Shown here: piece after piece, positions 2,402 to 56,032 of the stretch | Layout of the letters: each line of letters begins with the position of its first letter | Numbering within the stretch: position 1 is the first letter of the stretch | NCBI RefSeq assembly: GCF_021631985.1 | Contig: NZ_CP070225.1 | Location: forward strand, 6,634,001 to 6,698,000 | Length of the DNA stretch: 64,000 nucleotides | Origin: Sandaracinus amylolyticus | Lineage (GTDB): Bacteria; Myxococcota_A; Polyangia; Polyangiales; Sandaracinaceae | Direction of reading: 5' to 3' | Made by a program: the position numbers and the translations under genes | Notes under the pieces: generated by a model | Database searches by the model: none | Seen by the model: only the letters and a program-made list of their open reading frames with translations | Told to the model about the DNA's origin: nothing

Positions 2402-4453
2402 TCAGCCCGGGCCCTCGATCTCCGGCGGGCGCGGCGGGACGAGGAAGTAGACGATGCGCGAGTCGAGCGGCGAGCCGTCACCACGCACCGTGAGGCGCGC
2501 ACGGAAGACCTGCGGCGTGAGCGCGGGCATCACGGTGTCGTTCTGGCGCGGCACGACGTCCCAGCAGACGCGGTTGCCCGCGGTCACCGACGGGAACGTC
2601 TCGTGGACTCCATCGGGCGGTCCCGAGGGGAACGCCGACGCGTCCTCGGTCGTGATCGCGGAGCAGCCCGCGGTCGTCGTGTTCGTCTCGAGGTGCTGGA
2701 TGAACTGCAGCGCGTCACCCGCGTCCTCGGGCTCGTCGCTCGCCTCGATGGTCACGCGCAGCGGCACGCCGCGGACGATGTCGCGGACCGCCTGCACCGT
2801 GGACGTCACGACCGCCGAGTCGACCGCGCGGTAGACGAAGGGCTGACCGCTCGCGTCCAGCGTGCCCGACGCGGTGCCGATCGCGCGTGCGACCGACTCG
2901 GGCGTGCCCGTTCCGTCGTCGTCGTCGGTGCCGACGAGGCTGATGAAGCGGATGTTCTGCCCGCGCAGCGCGGCGCCGGCGCCCGCCGCGTTGTAGGTCG
3001 AGCACGCGCTACCGCTGCACTGCTGGTCGGCATCGGTGATCTGGATGTAGATGCGGATCGCCTCGGGGCGGTACCCACCGCAGCCGATGCCGGTCGTCGC
3101 GCAGTTCGCGCAGCCGGTCGTCGCGCGGTCCGCGACGCAATACGGCGGATGGTACGGCGCCTCGCTGCCGCCGCCGCCGGTGCCGGGGATCGCCGCCGCG
3201 GTCGCCGCGGGATCCGCCTGCAGCCCGACGCGGTTGCGGAACGTGTGGAGATCGTCCCACGTCGCCACGCCGGTCCACATGTCCGGCAGGCACCCGTCGC
3301 CCGCGTTGGGATCGGTGATGCACGCGCCGGCGAAGCAGACGCCCGCAGCGCAGTCGCTGTCGTTCGCGCACGCGCCACCGGTCGGCGCGCAGCGGAGCGC
3401 GTTGATGATCGCGGGCACGCCGGTCGTCGCGTTCCGCATCGCGTCGAGCTCGGCGCGCATCGAGCCGGTCGTGTCGAAGCTGAAGTACACGTCGGCGAAC
3501 TGCACGTTCGTGCGGAACGAGAGCGTGTCGCGCGTCGGATCGGGCGGCATCATGTAGGGGACGACGAATACGAAGTCGCCGCGCGTGCGCGGGTTGTCGG
3601 TGTTCAGCAGCGGATCGGTCCCCGCGGCGACCTCGATCAGATCGCTGATGCCGTCGCCGTCGCTGTCGGCCGCGTTCGGGCGCGTGCCGTGCGTCATCAC
3701 CTCGTCGCGATCGCTGAGACCGTCGGAGTCGGAGTCGGGATCGCGGAAGTCGTCGATGCCGTCCTCGTCGGTGTCGACCGGCGGCGACGTGATGTCCGCA
3801 TCGCCCGCTTCGCCGCTGTCCGGGATCGAGTCCTCGTCGGAGTCGGTGTCGAGGAAGTCCGGCGTGCCGTCGGAGTCGGTGTCGGCGTCGCCCTCGTGGC
3901 CATCGAGGATCGTGTCGTCGTCCGCGTCGGGATCGTGGTAGTCGGCGGTGCCGTCACCGTCGCTGTCGACCGGCGGCAGCGCGCCGCGCAGCTCGCGCGC
4001 GTCGGCGAGGTTGTCGCCGTCGTCGTCCATGTCGGCGTGGTTGGGACGACCGTCGCCGTCGACGTCGCCGGGCGCTTCCTCCGCGTCGGGGATGCCGTTG
4101 TTGTCGGAGTCGTCGTCGACGAAATCGGGGCGCGTGTCGCTGTCGGTGTCGCGCGGCGGCGTGCGCGGGTCGGTGTCGCCGGCCTCGTCGCGATCGAACA
4201 GGCCGTCACCGTCGCTGTCGTCGTCGCGGTAGTCGGGCGTTCCGTCCGAGTCGGTGTCGCGATTGCTCGAGCGACCTTCGTCGGCGTCGGAGATCCCGTC
4301 GCCGTCCTCGTCGGCGACCGCGACGTCACCGTCGCCTCCCACGCTGCCGTCGCGCCGACGATCCGGTGTGGGCTCGTCACATGCGCTGACCGTGCAGAGG
4401 AGCGAGAGGGCGATCAGAGAGCTGAAGAGAAGACGGCGAACGGCGTACGACAT
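2402..4453 (-). CDS. Lipoprotein with thrombospondin type 3-like calcium repeats and a VWA domain
   Basis: 683 aa. The start MSYAVRRLLF gives a signal sequence with lipobox VSAC (Cys25); the open frame runs further upstream but only the start at 4453 yields a signal peptide. Residues of about 40-290 are a run of Asp-rich units of the type DSDGDGxxD and DEDGDGI, as in Ca-binding thrombospondin type 3 repeats. These are followed by a von Willebrand factor A-like fold with the MIDAS sequence DTTGSM (Asp327 to Met332). The C-terminal half has several Cys pairs. It is probably a rigid calcium-stabilised stalk presenting an adhesion or sensing domain at the cell surface. The ligand is unknown. Confidence 0.85.
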   Translation of the reverse strand: MSYAVRRLLFSSLIALSLLCTVSACDEPTPDRRRDGSVGGDGDVAVADEDGDGISDADEGRSSNRDTDSDGTPDYRDDDSDGDGLFDRDEAGDTDPRTPPRDTDSDTRPDFVDDDSDNNGIPDAEEAPGDVDGDGRPNHADMDDDGDNLADARELRGALPPVDSDGDGTADYHDPDADDDTILDGHEGDADTDSDGTPDFLDTDSDEDSIPDSGEAGDADITSPPVDTDEDGIDDFRDPDSDSDGLSDRDEVMTHGTRPNAADSDGDGISDLIEVAAGTDPLLNTDNPRTRGDFVFVVPYMMPPDPTRDTLSFRTNVQFADVYFSFDTTGSMRAELDAMRNATTGVPAIINALRCAPTGGACANDSDCAAGVCFAGACITDPNAGDGCLPDMWTGVATWDDLHTFRNRVGLQADPAATAAAIPGTGGGGSEAPYHPPYCVADRATTGCANCATTGIGCGGYRPEAIRIYIQITDADQQCSGSACSTYNAAGAGAALRGQNIRFISLVGTDDDDGTGTPESVARAIGTASGTLDASGQPFVYRAVDSAVVTSTVQAVRDIVRGVPLRVTIEASDEPEDAGDALQFIQHLETNTTTAGCSAITTEDASAFPSGPPDGVHETFPSVTAGNRVCWDVVPRQNDTVMPALTPQVFRARLTVRGDGSPLDSRIVYFLVPPRPPEIEGPG

Positions 4454-7323: not shown

Positions 7324-9438
7324 TCACGGCACGAGCGACGAGCGGGGCCGCACCTGCTGCAGCACCAGCACGAGCGGCCCTTCGAGGGCGAGCGGTCCGT
7401 GCACCGCGCCGCCCTCCTCGCGCGCCCCGCTCGAGTCGAGCGCCACGAACCACTCGTCGCCCGCGAGCGCGCGCGGCAGCCGCAGCTCGATCGGACCGCG
7501 CTGCGCGCAGAAGAAGACGTAGAACGAGTCGCCCACGAGCGGCGCGCCGCTCGCGTCGCGCGCTCCGATCCGCATGCCGTCGAGGTGCATCCCGAGGCTG
7601 CGCACGTGCGGCGTCGTCCACTCGCGCTCGGACATCGGCGCGCCGTCGTGACGGTACCAAGCGACGTCTCCGTCGCCACGGAAGAACGTGTGCCGGCGGA
7701 ACACCGGATGCGCGCGCCGCAGCGCGAGCAGCGCGCGCGTGTGCTCGAGCAGCGCGCGATCGCGACCGTTCCAGTCGACCCAGCTCGTCTCGTCGTCGAG
7801 GCAGTACGCGTTGTTGTTGCCGAGCTGGCTGCGGCCCATCTCGTCGCCCGCGAGCAGCAGCGGCACGCCCTGCGAGAGGAAGATCGTCGCGAGGAAGTTG
7901 CGCTGCTGTCGTGCGCGCAGCGCGTTGATCGTCGGGTCGTCGGTCGGGCCCTCGACGCCGTGGTTGTCGCTGCGGTTGTCGCTAGTGCCGTCGCGGTTGT
8001 CCTCGCCGTTGCGCTCGTTGTGCTTGCGCTCGTAGCTCACGAGATCGCGCAGCGTGAAGCCGTCGTGCGCGGTCACGAAGTTCACGCTCGCGAAGGGTCG
8101 ACGGCCGTTGTTCGCGTAGAGATCGGCACTGCCCGCGACGCGCGTCGCGAGCTCACCGACGCTGCCGGGATCGGCGCGCCAGAAGCGACGCACCGCGTCG
8201 CGGTACTTGCCGTTCCACTCGCTCCAGTGCGGAGGGAAGCGCCCGACGTGATAGCCGTCCCACCCGATGTCCCAGGGCTCCGCGATCAGCTTCACGCGGC
8301 TGACGATCGGGTCCTGCTGCACGACGTCGAGGAACGACGAGAGGCCCGCCGCGCCGTGCTCTCCGCGCGCGAGCGCGGCCGCGAGATCGAAGCGGAACCC
8401 GTCGACGTGGAACTCCTCCACCCAGTGGCGGAGCGAGTCCATGATGAGCTGCAGCACGTGCGGCTGCGTCGCGTCGAGCGTGTTGCCGCAGCCCGTGAAG
8501 TCCTGATAGCGGCTCGGATTCTGCGGATCCAAGCGGTAGTACGACGCATTGTCGAGCCCGCGGAAGCACAGCGTCGGGCCTCGGTGATCGCCCTCGCCGG
8601 TGTGGTTGTAGACGACGTCGAGCAGCACCTCGATGCGCGCTTCGTGCATCGCCTTGATCGCGCTCTTGAGCTCGCTGATCGGATCGGCGCCGCGACGTGC
8701 ATAGCCCGCGTGGGGCGCGAAGTAGCCGATCGTGTTGTAGCCCCAGTAGTTCACGAGCCCGCGTCGCACGAGGTGCGGCTCGCTCGCGAACGTGTGGATC
8801 GGCATGAGCTCGACGCTCGTCACGCCGAGGCGCACGAGGTGATCGATCGCCGCGGGGTGCGCGAGGCCCGCGTAGGTGCCGCGCAGCGCGGGCGGGATCG
8901 CGGGGTGCCGCGCGGTGAAGCCCTTCACGTGCAGCTCGTAGAGCACGGTGTCGTGCCACGGCACGCGCGGCGGACGATCGTGGCCCCAGTCGAAGAACGG
9001 ATGGGTCACGACCGAGCGCGGCACGAAGGGCGCGCTGTCGCGATCGTCGCGCACGTTCTCGTCGCTCTCGCGATGACCGAGGGTCTCGGGCGCGGCCGAG
9101 ACGTCGCCGACGATCGACTTCGCGTAGGGATCGAGCAGCAGCTTCTGCGGGTTGCAGCGATGCCCGCGCGAAGGATCCCAGGGCCCGTGGACGCGATAGC
9201 CGTAGCGCGTGCCCGGCCCCACGTCGGGCAGGAAGCAGTGCCAGCGATAGCCGGTGCGCTCGAGCATCTCGACGCGCCGCTCGTGGCCCGCGTCGTCGAA
9301 GAGGCAGAGCTCGACACGCTCCGCCACGTCGGAGAAGACGCAGAAGTTCGTGCCGGTGCCGTCCCACGTCGCCCCGAGCGGCTCGGGCTCGCCGGGGCGG
9401 CTCTCGGCAGGTGCGGAGTGGCGCCGCGCGTCGTTCAT
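7324..9438 (-). CDS. glgX: Glycogen debranching enzyme GlgX (GH13 isoamylase type)
   Basis: 704 aa, as expected for GlgX/TreX. An N-terminal CBM48-like domain (TNFCVFSDVAERVELCLFDD) precedes the GH13 barrel. Barrel motifs are DVVYNHTGEGD, GFRFDLA (nucleophile Asp351), LIAEPWD (acid/base Glu387) and VTAHDGFT (Asp459). It hydrolyses alpha-1,6 branch points of glycogen or of limit dextrins in the cytoplasm. The ATG at 9438 has no strong ribosome site. No other glycogen gene is beside it. Confidence 0.95.
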   Translation of the reverse strand: MNDARRHSAPAESRPGEPEPLGATWDGTGTNFCVFSDVAERVELCLFDDAGHERRVEMLERTGYRWHCFLPDVGPGTRYGYRVHGPWDPSRGHRCNPQKLLLDPYAKSIVGDVSAAPETLGHRESDENVRDDRDSAPFVPRSVVTHPFFDWGHDRPPRVPWHDTVLYELHVKGFTARHPAIPPALRGTYAGLAHPAAIDHLVRLGVTSVELMPIHTFASEPHLVRRGLVNYWGYNTIGYFAPHAGYARRGADPISELKSAIKAMHEARIEVLLDVVYNHTGEGDHRGPTLCFRGLDNASYYRLDPQNPSRYQDFTGCGNTLDATQPHVLQLIMDSLRHWVEEFHVDGFRFDLAAALARGEHGAAGLSSFLDVVQQDPIVSRVKLIAEPWDIGWDGYHVGRFPPHWSEWNGKYRDAVRRFWRADPGSVGELATRVAGSADLYANNGRRPFASVNFVTAHDGFTLRDLVSYERKHNERNGEDNRDGTSDNRSDNHGVEGPTDDPTINALRARQQRNFLATIFLSQGVPLLLAGDEMGRSQLGNNNAYCLDDETSWVDWNGRDRALLEHTRALLALRRAHPVFRRHTFFRGDGDVAWYRHDGAPMSEREWTTPHVRSLGMHLDGMRIGARDASGAPLVGDSFYVFFCAQRGPIELRLPRALAGDEWFVALDSSGAREEGGAVHGPLALEGPLVLVLQQVRPRSSLVP

Positions 9439-11225: not shown

Positions 11226-11612
11226 ATGCGCCAGACGATCCGGGCTGGATCCTTCGTGGCGCGCGTGGAGAAGCGCGCGTCGTACCTGCTCGTCGTGGAG
11301 GGCGACGACGACATCACGGCCGAGCAGATGCGCGAGTACCTCGACGAGGTGGACCGCGCGGCCGAGCGCGCCGGCACCAAGAGCGTGATGTTCGACGCGC
11401 GCGGCAACCACGGCCCCTACGTCGCCGACGTGCACGCCGAGCGCTGGGCGTTCCTCACCGTGCGCACGAAGCTCGAGCGCGTGGCGGTGCTCCTGCCGCG
11501 CGAGCTCGACGTGTCGCGCGTCAACATGACGGCGATCGCCAAGCGCGGGAAGGCGCGCGTGCGCGCGTTCGCCGACGAGGCCTCCGCCGAGAAGTGGCTC
11601 GCGAGCGGCTGA
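11226..11612 (+). CDS. STAS/SpoIIAA-like domain protein
   Basis: 128 aa starting MRQTIRAGSF. The pattern of short beta strands and helices (YLLVVEGDDDITAEQMREYLDEVDRAA, then KSVMFDARGNHGP, then RVAVLLPRELDVSR) fits the single-domain STAS/SEC14-like proteins related to SpoIIAA. In such proteins the fold binds partner proteins or small ligands. No phosphorylatable Ser in the classical DxSG context is visible. It is predicted to be cytoplasmic. A 93-bp tandem repeat begins right after its stop codon. A second protein of this kind is at 46247-46675. Confidence 0.6.
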   Translation: MRQTIRAGSFVARVEKRASYLLVVEGDDDITAEQMREYLDEVDRAAERAGTKSVMFDARGNHGPYVADVHAERWAFLTVRTKLERVAVLLPRELDVSRVNMTAIAKRGKARVRAFADEASAEKWLASG

Positions 11613-11852
11613 GCCCCCGGCGGAGTGCTCGTCCCGCAGGTCCCGGACGGGAGCGCGCGAAGCGCGCGGACGGGAGGGACCGGCGGGCGAGCCGATGTTT
11701 CGACAGCCCCCGGCGGAGTGCTCGTCCCGCAGCTCCCGGACGGGAGCGCGCGAAGCGCGCGGACGGGAGGGACCGGCGGGCGAGCCGATGTTTCGACAGC
11801 CCCCGGCGGAGTGCTCGTCCCGCACGGGAGCGCGCGGGCGAGCCGATGTTTC
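11613..11852 (+). repeat. Tandem 93-bp repeat (two full units and one deleted unit)
   Basis: Units start at 11613, 11706 and 11799, an exact 93-base period. The first two differ at very few positions. The third has lost most of its middle. Each unit carries GGAGTGCTCGTCCCGC at its 5' side, an internal hairpin GCGCGC-GAA-GCGCGC, and GGCGGGCGAGCCGAT at its 3' side. Nested complementary arms (CTCGTCCCGC with GCGGGCGAG, GGTCCC with GGGACC) should fold into one long stem. Related single copies occur at 22810, 43998 (inverted) and 55903. The array fills the gap between two convergent genes. Confidence 0.9.
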
Positions 11853-22215: not shown

Positions 22216-22809
22216 ATGGCAGTGCTTGTTGGTTCGCGGACTCACCGCCGCGAAATCTCGCGACTCTCGCTCGTGCTCGCGCTCGGCGCGACGATCACCG
22301 CCGCGTCGATGGCCGCGGTCCCGGCCAGCACGCCCGTCCTCGGCGCGTCGAGCGCGCTCGCGCGCGTGGGTGGCCGACCCCCGCCGTTCACGCTCCCTGC
22401 GGCGACCGGTGGCCCGTCGCGCGGTGAGTTCCGCATGGCCGATCACCTCGGGCAGCACCCCGTCGTGATCCTCTTCTGGGCGACGTGGTGCGTGCCCTGC
22501 CAGCAGGAGCTGCCCTTCTACCAGTCGCTCTACGAGCGCTATCGCGAGCGCGGGCTGCGCGTCGTCGGCATCAGCATGGACGACGCGCGCACCGTGATGC
22601 GCGCGGGCCCCGCCGCACGCCGGCTCGGCGTGACCTTCGACGTCGTCACCGACCTCGACACCCGCATCACCACGCAGATCAACCCGCGCCGCAGCGCGCC
22701 GTTCAGCATCTGGGTGGATCGCGACGGGCGCATCGTGTGGGAGCGCGAAGGCTTCGCGCCCGCCGAGCAGCAGGCGATCAGCGAGGGCGTCGCGCGTCTC
22801 GTGCAGTGA
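22216..22809 (+). CDS. TlpA-like thiol:disulphide oxidoreductase
   Basis: 197 aa. The second ATG (22216) is placed 6 bases after GGAGG and is preferred over that at 22210. A signal-anchor (about residues 14-38) is followed by the thioredoxin fold with ILFWATWCVPCQQELPFY (Cys92 and Cys95) and APFSIWVDRDGRIV. It should reduce or exchange disulphides outside the cytoplasm. It is the last gene of the 18893-22809 operon and ends in the stop-anchored repeat. Confidence 0.88.
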   Translation: MAVLVGSRTHRREISRLSLVLALGATITAASMAAVPASTPVLGASSALARVGGRPPPFTLPAATGGPSRGEFRMADHLGQHPVVILFWATWCVPCQQELPFYQSLYERYRERGLRVVGISMDDARTVMRAGPAARRLGVTFDVVTDLDTRITTQINPRRSAPFSIWVDRDGRIVWEREGFAPAEQQAISEGVARLVQ

Positions 22810-22894
22810 GTCCTTGCCGGAGTGCTCGTCCCGCAGATCCCGGACGGGAGCGCGCGAAGCGCGCCGACGCCAGGGACCGGCGGGCGAGCCGATT
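22810..22894 (+). repeat. Stop-anchored dispersed repeat, copy B
   Basis: The GGAGTGCTCGTCCCGC motif starts at 22819, exactly 10 bases after the last base of the TlpA-like gene's stop. The hairpin GCGCGC-GAA-GCGCGC and the 3' end GGCGGGCGAGCCGAT match the tandem array at 11613. At 22895 the opening TGAGTCCT recurs, as if a second unit had started and been lost. It fills most of the gap between two convergent genes. Confidence 0.85.
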
Positions 22895-22916
22895 TGAGTC
22901 CTCGGCGAATGATCGA

Positions 22917-42301: not shown

Positions 42302-42377
42302 TGCGCTCGGAATCCGGCGCGCCACCGAGCGACGAACGGAGCGGCGGACGTCGCGCGGTGGTGAGTGAGTGCCCGAA

Positions 42378-42446
42378 ATCGGCTCGCCCGCTCCGGGCGC
42401 TCCCGTGCGAGCCCTGCGCTGGCGAGCACTCCCGCGGGACCGAGTG
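42378..42446 (-). repeat. Possible degenerate copy of the dispersed repeat
   Basis: ATCGGCTCGCCCG, GCGCTCCCGT and GCGAGCACTCCCGCGGGAC echo the inverted form of the dispersed repeat, but in broken order and without the GCGCGC hairpin. This copy is not next to a stop codon. It lies in the gap before the gene at 42488. Confidence 0.35.
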
Positions 42447-43093: not shown

Positions 43094-43979
43094 CGTCCTG
43101 TTCGCTGCGGCGCTGCTCGTGACGTTCGCCCTCGGCCCGACCGAGGCGCGCGCATGGTGCCAGATGACGACCGGCGGTCGTCGCCCCGGGCCCGGCGAGA
43201 CCTGCGTGATCGCGACGCCACCGGACTCGTTCCCGCTCGCGTGGCGGCGCCGCTGCACCTCGATGTCGCTGAGCACGTTCGGCAGCTCGACGCTCTCGCC
43301 CGGCGAAGTGGCGGACGTGCTGCGCGGCGCGATCACGACGTGGGAGGGCGTGCGGTGCGACGGCCAGCCGACCGGCCTGCACGTCGAGGTGCTCGCCGAG
43401 CCGAACGAGTGCGAGACGGCGTCGCACCTCACCGGCGATCGCAACGTGCACTCGGTGATCTTCGTCCAGGACGGCTGGGTCGAGGAGCGCATGCACGACG
43501 CGCGGGCGTTCGCGGTCACGCTCGTGTGGCACGACCCGCAGAGCGGTGAGATCTGGGACGCCGACATGGAGATCAACGAGCAGCGCGGCCCCTTCGTCGT
43601 GTGCCCGGCCGAGGGCTGCAACGACGGCGAGGTCGATCTGCCGAACGTCATCACGCACGAGATGGGTCACTACTTCGGCCTCGCGCACACGCCGGACGAC
43701 GCGCTCGCGACGATGTGGGCGTCGGCCGAGCCCGCGGAGACGCTCAAGCGAGATCTGCAGCCCGACGACGTCGCCGGGCTCTGCGCGATCTATCCGCCGG
43801 GCACGCTCCCCGAGGAGTGCGACCCGACGCCGCGCGGCGGGCTCGGACTGAATTGCCAGCGCGAAGAGGGCTGCAGCTGCAGCGTGCCCGGCCTGCCGGG
43901 ACGCGGGAGCGCGGCCGGCGCGATGGGTGCGATCGCGATCGTCGCGATGATGGTCGCGGCGCGTCGCCGGCGGCAGTGA
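43080..43979 (+). CDS. Matrixin-family zinc metalloprotease with MYXO-CTERM-like tail
   Basis: 299 aa. A signal peptide is followed by the catalytic domain with ITHEMGHYFGLAHT, the HExxHxxGxxH motif of matrixins and other metzincins (His193, Glu194, His197, His203), and an upstream VWHDPQSGEIWDADMEIN. The C-terminus GCSCSVPG, then a helix AMGAIAIVAMMVAA and RRRRQ, resembles the MYXO-CTERM sorting signal, which anchors proteins at the surface before processing. It should degrade protein outside the cell. Confidence 0.92.
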   Translation: MVRTDVLFAAALLVTFALGPTEARAWCQMTTGGRRPGPGETCVIATPPDSFPLAWRRRCTSMSLSTFGSSTLSPGEVADVLRGAITTWEGVRCDGQPTGLHVEVLAEPNECETASHLTGDRNVHSVIFVQDGWVEERMHDARAFAVTLVWHDPQSGEIWDADMEINEQRGPFVVCPAEGCNDGEVDLPNVITHEMGHYFGLAHTPDDALATMWASAEPAETLKRDLQPDDVAGLCAIYPPGTLPEECDPTPRGGLGLNCQREEGCSCSVPGLPGRGSAAGAMGAIAIVAMMVAARRRRQ

Positions 43980-43997
43980 TCGCTGGCGCGCGGGCTC

Positions 43998-44080
43998 AAT
44001 CGGCTCGCCCGCAGGTCCCTACCGTCCGCGCGCTTCGCGCGCTCCCGTTCGGGACCCGCGGGACGAGCACTCCGGCAAGG
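43998..44080 (-). repeat. Stop-anchored dispersed repeat, copy C
   Basis: Read on the minus strand it begins TGAGTCCTTGCC, taking in the stop of the gene ending at 44083. GGAGTGCTCGTCCCGC starts at 44073, 10 bases from the stop's last base (44083). The hairpin GCGCGC-GAA-GCGCGC and the 3' end GCGGGCGAGCCGAT are intact. It fills the gap between two convergent genes. Confidence 0.85.
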
Positions 44081-44082
44081 AC

Positions 44083-44967
44083 TCAGATCGGGAGCGCGGC
44101 CGGCGCGCTCCAGATCTCGCCGACGCCGTAGCGGCCCGCGTCGTCGCGCGTGACGCGGCCCATCGCGGTCTCGGGGTCGTGGGTGAAGAAGAGGCGCCCT
44201 CCGCGCGCGACGAGGTCGCGGAGGAGCGCCTCCTTCTCGTCGATCAGCTTCTCGGGCCAGCGGTCGTAGCCCATCGTGATCGGCAGGTGCACCCAGGGGC
44301 GGCCCGGGATGAGATCGGCGGCGAACACGATCGGGCCGGCATCGCTCGGCACCTCGGCGAGCACGAGGCCCGGCGTGTGGCCCTCGGAGCGGTGCAGCAC
44401 GTAGTCCGGCCCGAGCGCGCGCGAGCGATCTCCGTCGGCGATCTCGAGCCGCCCGCTCGCCTCGAGCAGCGCGATCAGCTCGGGCACGAACGACGCGCGA
44501 TCGCGCGGATGCGGATGCTTCGCGCGCTCCCACGCCTCGCGGCCGACCACGAACGTCGCGTTCGGGAAGAGCAGGCGCGGCGGCTGGCCTTCTTCGTACG
44601 CGGCGAGCAGGCCGCCCGCGTGATCGAAGTGCAGATGCGAGAGCACGACGACGTCGAACTGGTCGTGCGTGGTGCCCGCGCGCGCGAGGCTCTCGAGCAG
44701 GACGTGCTCGCTCTCGACCACGCCGTAGCGATCGCGGAGCTTGGGCGAGAAGAACGCGCCGATCCCGGTCTCGAAGAGCACGCGCCGGACGCGCCCGTCG
44801 TCGTGCGTCTCCTCGACCAGCATCGCGCGGCACGCGAGCGGAATGCGGTGACGCTCGTCGGGCGCGATCCAGCGCTCCCACACCGGGCGCGGTGCGTTGC
44901 CGAACATCGCGCCTCCATCGAGGCGCTGCGAGTTGCCGAGGATCGACCAGAGGCGGCGGCGAGTCAT
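44083..44967 (-). CDS. MBL-fold metallo-hydrolase
   Basis: 294 aa. [33 protein letters not shown] matches the start of a family of MBL-fold hydrolases (N-acyl homoserine lactonase/quinolone-hydrolase-like). The metal site is [12 protein letters not shown], followed by SEGHTPG and FAADLIPG. It is likely a cytoplasmic lactonase- or esterase-like enzyme; the substrate is unknown. Divergent from the terpene synthase across 209 bases that hold short hairpins (CGGGA-ATCA-TCCCG) but no clear promoter. Confidence 0.85.
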
Positions 44968-50542: not shown

Positions 50543-50547
50543 GCGAC

Positions 50548-50581
50548 GCTACGGAATCCGTAGCGCTACGGATTCCGTAGC
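50548..50581. promoter_or_regulatory. 34-bp tandem palindrome
   Basis: GCTACGGAATCCGTAGC (50548-50564) is followed at once by GCTACGGATTCCGTAGC (50565-50581). Each 17-mer is a palindrome around a single central base (A or T), and the two together form a perfect 34-bp palindrome. It starts 5 bases after the stop at 50542. It may be a terminator or a double binding site. Confidence 0.7.
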
Positions 50582-55431: not shown

Positions 55432-55902
55432 ATGGATCCGCACGACCGCGCCGACCGTTCGCGCACGCGCACGCGGCCCTCGTTGCCGCGGGTCGAGGCG
55501 CCGCGCGCGCACGTGCTGATCGTCGACGACGAAGCCGCGCTGCGCGACGTGCTGCGGACGGTGCTGCGCGCGCGCTTCGACGTGAGCGTCGCGGAGCACG
55601 GCGGCGAAGCGATGCGGGTGATCGAGGCGAACGAGACCGACATCGATCTCGTGCTGAGCGACGTGCGCATGCCGTGGGTGCACGGGGTCGAGCTGCACCG
55701 CGGGCTCGTCGCGCGCCGTCACCCGCTCGCGCAGCGTTTCGTGTGGATGACCGGCGGAGGGCTCTCCGAAGGTCTGCGCCGCTACGTGAGCGCGACCGGT
55801 CTTCCGGTGATCGACAAGCCGTTCCGGCTCGACGAGCTCGAGTCGATGCTCGCGCGGCTCACCGCGCCCGACGCGGCCCCGCCCGGCGCCAACGCCGGTT
55901 GA
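55432..55902 (+). CDS. CheY-like response regulator (receiver only)
   Basis: 156 aa. The receiver domain covers residues 26-145 after a basic tail: acidic pair Asp32-Asp33, phospho-acceptor Asp77 in LVLSDVRMP, Thr in WMTGG and Lys in IDKPFR. There is no output domain and no kinase gene nearby, so it is an orphan regulator. A dispersed repeat copy follows its stop. Confidence 0.92.
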   Translation: MDPHDRADRSRTRTRPSLPRVEAPRAHVLIVDDEAALRDVLRTVLRARFDVSVAEHGGEAMRVIEANETDIDLVLSDVRMPWVHGVELHRGLVARRHPLAQRFVWMTGGGLSEGLRRYVSATGLPVIDKPFRLDELESMLARLTAPDAAPPGANAG

Positions 55903-55960
55903 CTCTTCGCCGGAGTGCTCGTCCCGCAGGTCCCGCGAAGCGCGCGGACGGGAGCGAGAG
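55903..55960 (+). repeat. Stop-anchored dispersed repeat, copy D (shortened)
   Basis: After the stop at 55902, the spacer CTCTTCGCC leads to GGAGTGCTCGTCCCGC at 55912, again 10 bases from the stop. The left hairpin arm is deleted; CGAAGCGCGCGGACGGGAG remains. Unlike copies A to C it lies between genes on the same strand. Confidence 0.75.
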
Positions 55961-56032
55961 GCCGCTGACGCAGCGCGTCGTCTCCGCGCGTGCGGAGGTC
56001 GGTCACAGCGTGCGCGCATCGGGATTGCGCGT

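Follow-up and report, generated by a model that had tools for sequence, protein, structure and literature searches.

The window analysed here, a stretch of 64,000 nucleotides from Sandaracinus amylolyticus, contains a response-regulator gene whose TGA stop is followed at a short distance by the motif GGAGTGCTCGTCCCGC, and the question is whether this sequence is a mobile repeat that settles at gene ends, an RNA module retained for its effect on the transcript, or the source of the stop codon itself. The motif has six exact copies at four loci in this 64-kb window, on the plus strand at 11622, 11715, 11808, 22819 and 55912 and on the minus strand at 44058-44073. The first-pass annotation had described the same element at all four loci, which the exact motif at each confirms. 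At 4/4 loci the start of the first motif lies 10 bases past the last base of a same-orientation TGA, and three of the four lie in gaps between convergent genes by our own gene calls, both as originally described. Overlooked at that stage was the tandem arrangement at 11612-11824, an array whose copies repeat every 93 bp. The features are collected in the table, together with related subfamilies found elsewhere. The B-like copy in the window has a similar counterpart in syntenic DNA of a congener (L246) and is therefore probably older. Another short palindrome, CGCTACGGAATCCGTAG, occurs in tandem at 50547-50581 and in the right flanks of element sites L051 and L218; it may be a second dispersed repeat.

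Table. Coordinates of the hairpin elements and their anchoring stop codon (window positions unless a locus identifier is given).
Feature	Position	Strand	Remarks
TGA stop of SpoIIAA-like gene (11256-11612)	11610..11612	+	array anchor
Subfamily A, copy 1 of array	11613..11698	+	full hairpin
Subfamily A, copy 2 of array	11706..11791	+	93-bp period
Subfamily A, copy 3 of array	11799..11852	+	internal deletion (middle and apical helices gone)
Subfamily A copy	22810..22894	+	after TGA (22807-22809) of AhpC/TSA-Redoxin (TlpA-like) gene; second TGAG at 22895-22898
Subfamily A copy	43999..44082	-	after TGA (44085-44083) of metallo-beta-lactamase-fold gene; second TGAG at 43998-43995
Subfamily A copy, degenerate	55903..55960	+	after TGA (55900-55902) of response-regulator gene; 3' outer arm missing; second TGA at 55966-55968
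B-like copy of same hairpin	42367..42440	-	left boundary approximate; not at a called stop
Subfamily B	L043:3299-3377	-	
Subfamily B	L238-L267; plasmid L251		
Subfamily C	L045:210-320 (region 200-400)		tandem
Subfamily C	L192:13234-13340		

The window's genome (G000) comprises a 10.75-Mb chromosome and a second contig of 209,732 bp (plasmid NZ_MW053453.1). It was compared with a congener (G001; 10,327,335 bases, inverse-collinear with G000 at ~90% identity) and with a third congener represented by a 6-Mb draft (G002). The first-pass annotation had proposed following the motif through the whole genome and through orthologous genes of related strains. The whole-genome search recovered 180 exact copies of GGAGTGCTCGTCCCGC in G000, against 0 copies of a reversed control pattern, and 65 exact copies in G001. 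None was found in the G002 draft or in the seven other genomes searched in the family, and elsewhere in the phylum (379 genomes) only two single matches appeared. A covariance model of 86 positions gives at least 150 matches in G000 and at least 149 in G001. The unit is a hairpin of ~86 nt, present singly or in head-to-tail arrays of up to 6 copies with a period of ~74-95 bp, and tandem copies all face the same direction within an array; where arrays are occupied in both genomes, their copy number is frequently unequal. No Rfam family matched the window at the gathering score, and a generalised subfamily pattern had no match in viral contigs or in a scan of a contig collection from which the window's own and near genomes may be excluded. 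A phage or plasmid origin was rejected, as no viral contig matched and the sole plasmid copy, a member of subfamily B, lies on the Sandaracinus sp. plasmid NZ_MW053453.1.

Approximately 100 of the element sites were fetched and read, with genes called by our own codon-usage script. This analysis reveals that the fixed distance from stop codons proposed for the window holds across the genome: in G000, 64/69 arrays begin between -3 and +1 nt relative to the stop codon of a gene in the same orientation, 53 of them at the identical base (offset 0) and the others at -1 (8), +1 (2) and -3 (1). A TGA stands exactly at -12 from the motif start in 53/67 array-first copies and at -11 in seven more. For G001 the corresponding figure is 38/52 arrays, at -3 to +5 from a stop codon. 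Three G001 sites (L118, L121 and L129) carry copies behind T-runs, away from stop codons, and the L129 copy follows a terminator-like hairpin.

The stops at G000 element sites are 63 TGA and 1 TAG, close to the genome's overall usage (91% TGA), so that TGA identity alone says little. The same preponderance of TGA would favor insertion at any TGA-like triplet, with copies surviving mainly at stops because the protein stays whole there; most coding TGA/TCA sites (10,889 in 864 kb) would be costly to hit. However, non-coding TGA/TCA sites that are not stops outnumber stops (1272 vs 683) and hold few copies. With our own gene calls and every non-coding TGA/TCA site weighted alike, 93% are observed at stops, compared with the 35% expected were such sites equal targets (p 8e-24). 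In convergent gaps, where neither kind of site should be harmful to hit, the same procedure places 35/35 at stops against 50% expected (p 3e-11). Indiscriminate insertion followed by selective survival is thus rather unlikely.

Evidence for mobility comes from comparison with one congener, G001, in which stretches were picked by predicted synteny alone; 26 G000 sites were placeable. The element is absent from 21/26 of these, present at 2, and the remaining 3 are otherwise changed; all three single-copy window loci (22811, 43998 and 55905) are empty in G001. With its flanking genes also unrelated, the element is supported as mobile, in line with the original suggestion of a mobile 3'-end element. 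In 17/19 empty orthologues a TGA terminates the gene at the identical codon, which marks the stop as ancestral. The further suggestion that the element itself supplies the stop codon is therefore not supported for subfamily A. The same comparison leaves virtually no room for a single ancestral copy duplicated along with its neighboring genes, a reading refuted by the existence of empty orthologous sites and by hosts as unrelated as SpoIIAA-like, TlpA-like, MBL-fold and response-regulator genes. At the position of the window array (11620-11791), the G001 counterpart (L193) has 464 other bases. At two empty G001 sites (L209 ~7718-7750 and L205 ~4359-4388), the stop is immediately followed by a GC-rich inverted repeat of the congener's own, which G000, the occupied genome, does not have.

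At the cleaner junctions (L094, L070, W43998, W22811 and L043:3297), the element has TGA(G), YGA or TCA(G) on either side. At L094, the empty G001 site reads GGGTGAGACGCG and the occupied G000 site GGGTGAG[...CTT]GAGACGCG; at L070:2190, G001 reads GGACTGAGCGCG and G000 GGACTGAG[...TTC]GAGCACG; at L043:3297, TCAG flanks the element on both sides. Such flanking triplets would fit either a short target duplication or the cleavage sites of a single-strand system. Read as a duplication, the repeat is imperfect: on the right the triplet is YGA, and much of the flanking sequence there is unlike the empty site.

The fold of subfamily A is CTCG-T-CCCGC / GGTCCC / CG / GCGCGC; its internal loops are symmetric, and the apical loop is mostly GAA or another GNA triloop. 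Its consensus in the exact-motif alignment (A1) is GTCCNTGCCGGAGTGCTCG..CGAGCCGATTT, 86 nt in length; the pair count is weak in A1, since the search had fixed the 5' arm. A second alignment (A2; 39 sequences of subfamilies A, B and C) is free of the exact-motif restriction. In A2, 95% of cells are paired and nine pairs are changed on both sides, with 43 double-changed cells vs 16 in shuffles, and 0/500 shuffles reach 43. These compensatory changes support the hairpin structure. For individual copies, the long hairpin predicted by the first-pass annotation is borne out only in part: the copy at 44058 folds better than its shuffles (z -3.75), whereas that at 55912, whose 3' outer arm is absent, does not (z +0.67).

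Subfamily B (GGAGTGCTCGCTGGCG...CCGGCGAGCCGATTTTGGACACTC) retains the architecture of subfamily A with other stem sequences; its 21-base end has 55 matches in G000 at ≤3 mismatches, some of which are A copies. Relative to the stop codon its orientation is reversed in comparison with subfamily A, and in 16/27 copies an antisense TGA stop is found 1-3 nt from the right end. Subfamily C has wholly different stems, with internal loops and ends as in the other subfamilies.

These structural features bear on whether the element is a functional 3'-end RNA module (terminator, stabilizer or translation-termination brake) kept by selection, with mobility secondary. Subfamily A is nearly always in sense orientation, a T-rich tail follows the stem by a few nt in the family consensus, and the compensatory changes maintain the structure. 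Moreover, E. coli REPs located <16 nt from a stop reportedly reduce translation (cited in PMC12306157). The subfamily A stem begins ~15 nt past the stop, a distance close to that of these REPs, and by this analogy an RNA effect may be inferred. However, most sites are empty in a congener of 90% identity, so no such gene needs the element; subfamily B reads in the opposite orientation; and a simple terminator scan of 43900-44200 gave no match at the 44058 copy. Selection for an RNA function as the primary explanation is accordingly unlikely, while a role in the 3'UTR is possible.

The search for a mobilizing enzyme covered several families. PF01797 (Y1_Tnp) has 0 matches in G000, G001 and G002 and is present in five other family genomes and in control genomes; PF01609 (DDE_Tnp_1) is absent from G000; and PF04986 (Y2_Tnp) occurs once, on the plasmid only. 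Reverse transcriptases occur in both carriers, G000 and G001, and no element lies beside their genes at the loci examined. As partners, Y1, Y2, DDE_Tnp_1 and reverse transcriptases were all set aside when the search found no associated gene. Eight reverse-transcriptase matches in G001 (including L272, L274 and L276) have near-equal scores and no equal-scoring counterpart in G000; these loci are probably a multicopy retroelement. Copy pairs 0.9-2.9 kb apart were considered as the ends of an autonomous element and rejected: at the one pair checked (L079), the two scanned proteins are a sigma factor and one without a family, not a transposase. No parent insertion sequence was found in the ~100 sites read.

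Movement of a REP-type element by an IS200/IS605-like Y1 enzyme, with TGAG in the part of the GTAG-like tetranucleotide, would be consistent with the many copies, the subterminal hairpin, the short fixed flank and the insertion 3' of a fixed triplet seen here, and the termini of GTAG REPs frequently provide TAG stops (PMC3733652). However, Y1_Tnp is missing from all three congeners, and the arrays run head-to-tail, not head-to-head. IS200/IS605-type elements are expected to be strand-biased, whereas orientation here is roughly balanced on either side of the GC-skew switch by which the replichores were judged; this speaks against lagging-strand-specific insertion. Mobilization by a Y1 enzyme therefore appears improbable.

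Taken together, the family is probably specific to Sandaracinus and consists of non-autonomous mobile hairpins of ~80-95 bp that insert at the TGA stops of host genes. The best reading is a REP/MITE-like element targeted to stop codons or surviving mainly there. An enzyme encoded elsewhere would recognize the folded hairpin and attach it to a target TGA/TCA, duplicating ~3-4 nt; with the stop triplet either duplicated or kept intact, the reading frame would survive. Head-to-tail arrays could grow by unequal exchange, or by new insertions beside the YGA that ends a resident copy. An inserted hairpin would probably form the beginning of the transcribed 3'UTR, where it may influence termination, decay or the release of ribosomes. 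More tentatively, and with considerable doubt, we suggest that transposition truly targets stops through a TGA in gene-end context, that the subfamilies read the target in opposite directions (A with TGA on the left, B with TCA on the left), and that the mobilizer lies outside Y1 and DDE_Tnp_1. If stop targeting is true, it would represent a natural ‘safe-harbor’ strategy that leaves host proteins intact.

Two closely related soil bacteria carry well over a hundred copies of this element, which has probably jumped repeatedly behind the stops of unrelated genes and left the proteins intact. Almost all lie at one base after a pre-existing stop, without a Y1 enzyme, and the two congeners provide clean occupied/empty pairs. 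The identity of the mobilizer and the effect of the 3' hairpin on expression thereby become directly testable, and the system offers a lead towards gene-end insertion without protein damage.

REP-like repeats cluster near gene ends, but the distance is usually loose, and a Y1 enzyme is often known or suspected. The GTAG and CGTC REP super-families are short, high-copy palindromes, most of which occupy gaps between convergent or co-directional genes, ~20 bp or less from the 3' end of an ORF (PMC3733652). The Sandaracinus element is likewise palindromic, extragenic and high in copy number, and it lies close to the 3' ends of ORFs; like the CGTC REPs (PMC3733652), it has no known transposase. Unlike REPs of 20-40 bp, it spans 86 nt with three helices, forms no head-to-head or tail-to-tail dimers, and inserts directly after an ancestral TGA; unlike GTAG REPs, it lacks a terminal GTAG (A1 consensus), and G000 lacks a RAYT (Y1 transposase) gene. 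Nearness to stops is already known for REPs; anchoring to a single base after an ancestral TGA was not found described in the open-access text. E. coli REPs within 15 nt of stops likewise place a hairpin just downstream with a possible effect on translation (cited in PMC12306157); there a share of copies lies at variable distances from the stop, whereas here nearly all lie at one distance. Compared with an intrinsic terminator, in which a GC-rich hairpin is followed directly by a U-tract, the T-rich tail of the element begins a few nt past the stem. Like bacterial MITEs, as characterized in a review (PMC10969869), the element is small, non-autonomous, mobile and intergenic, with short, imperfect repeats at both ends of the cleaner insertions. 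It differs from them in having internal complementary arms rather than clear terminal inverted repeats, in that the sites read yielded no parent insertion sequence, and in its almost exclusive location at stop codons.
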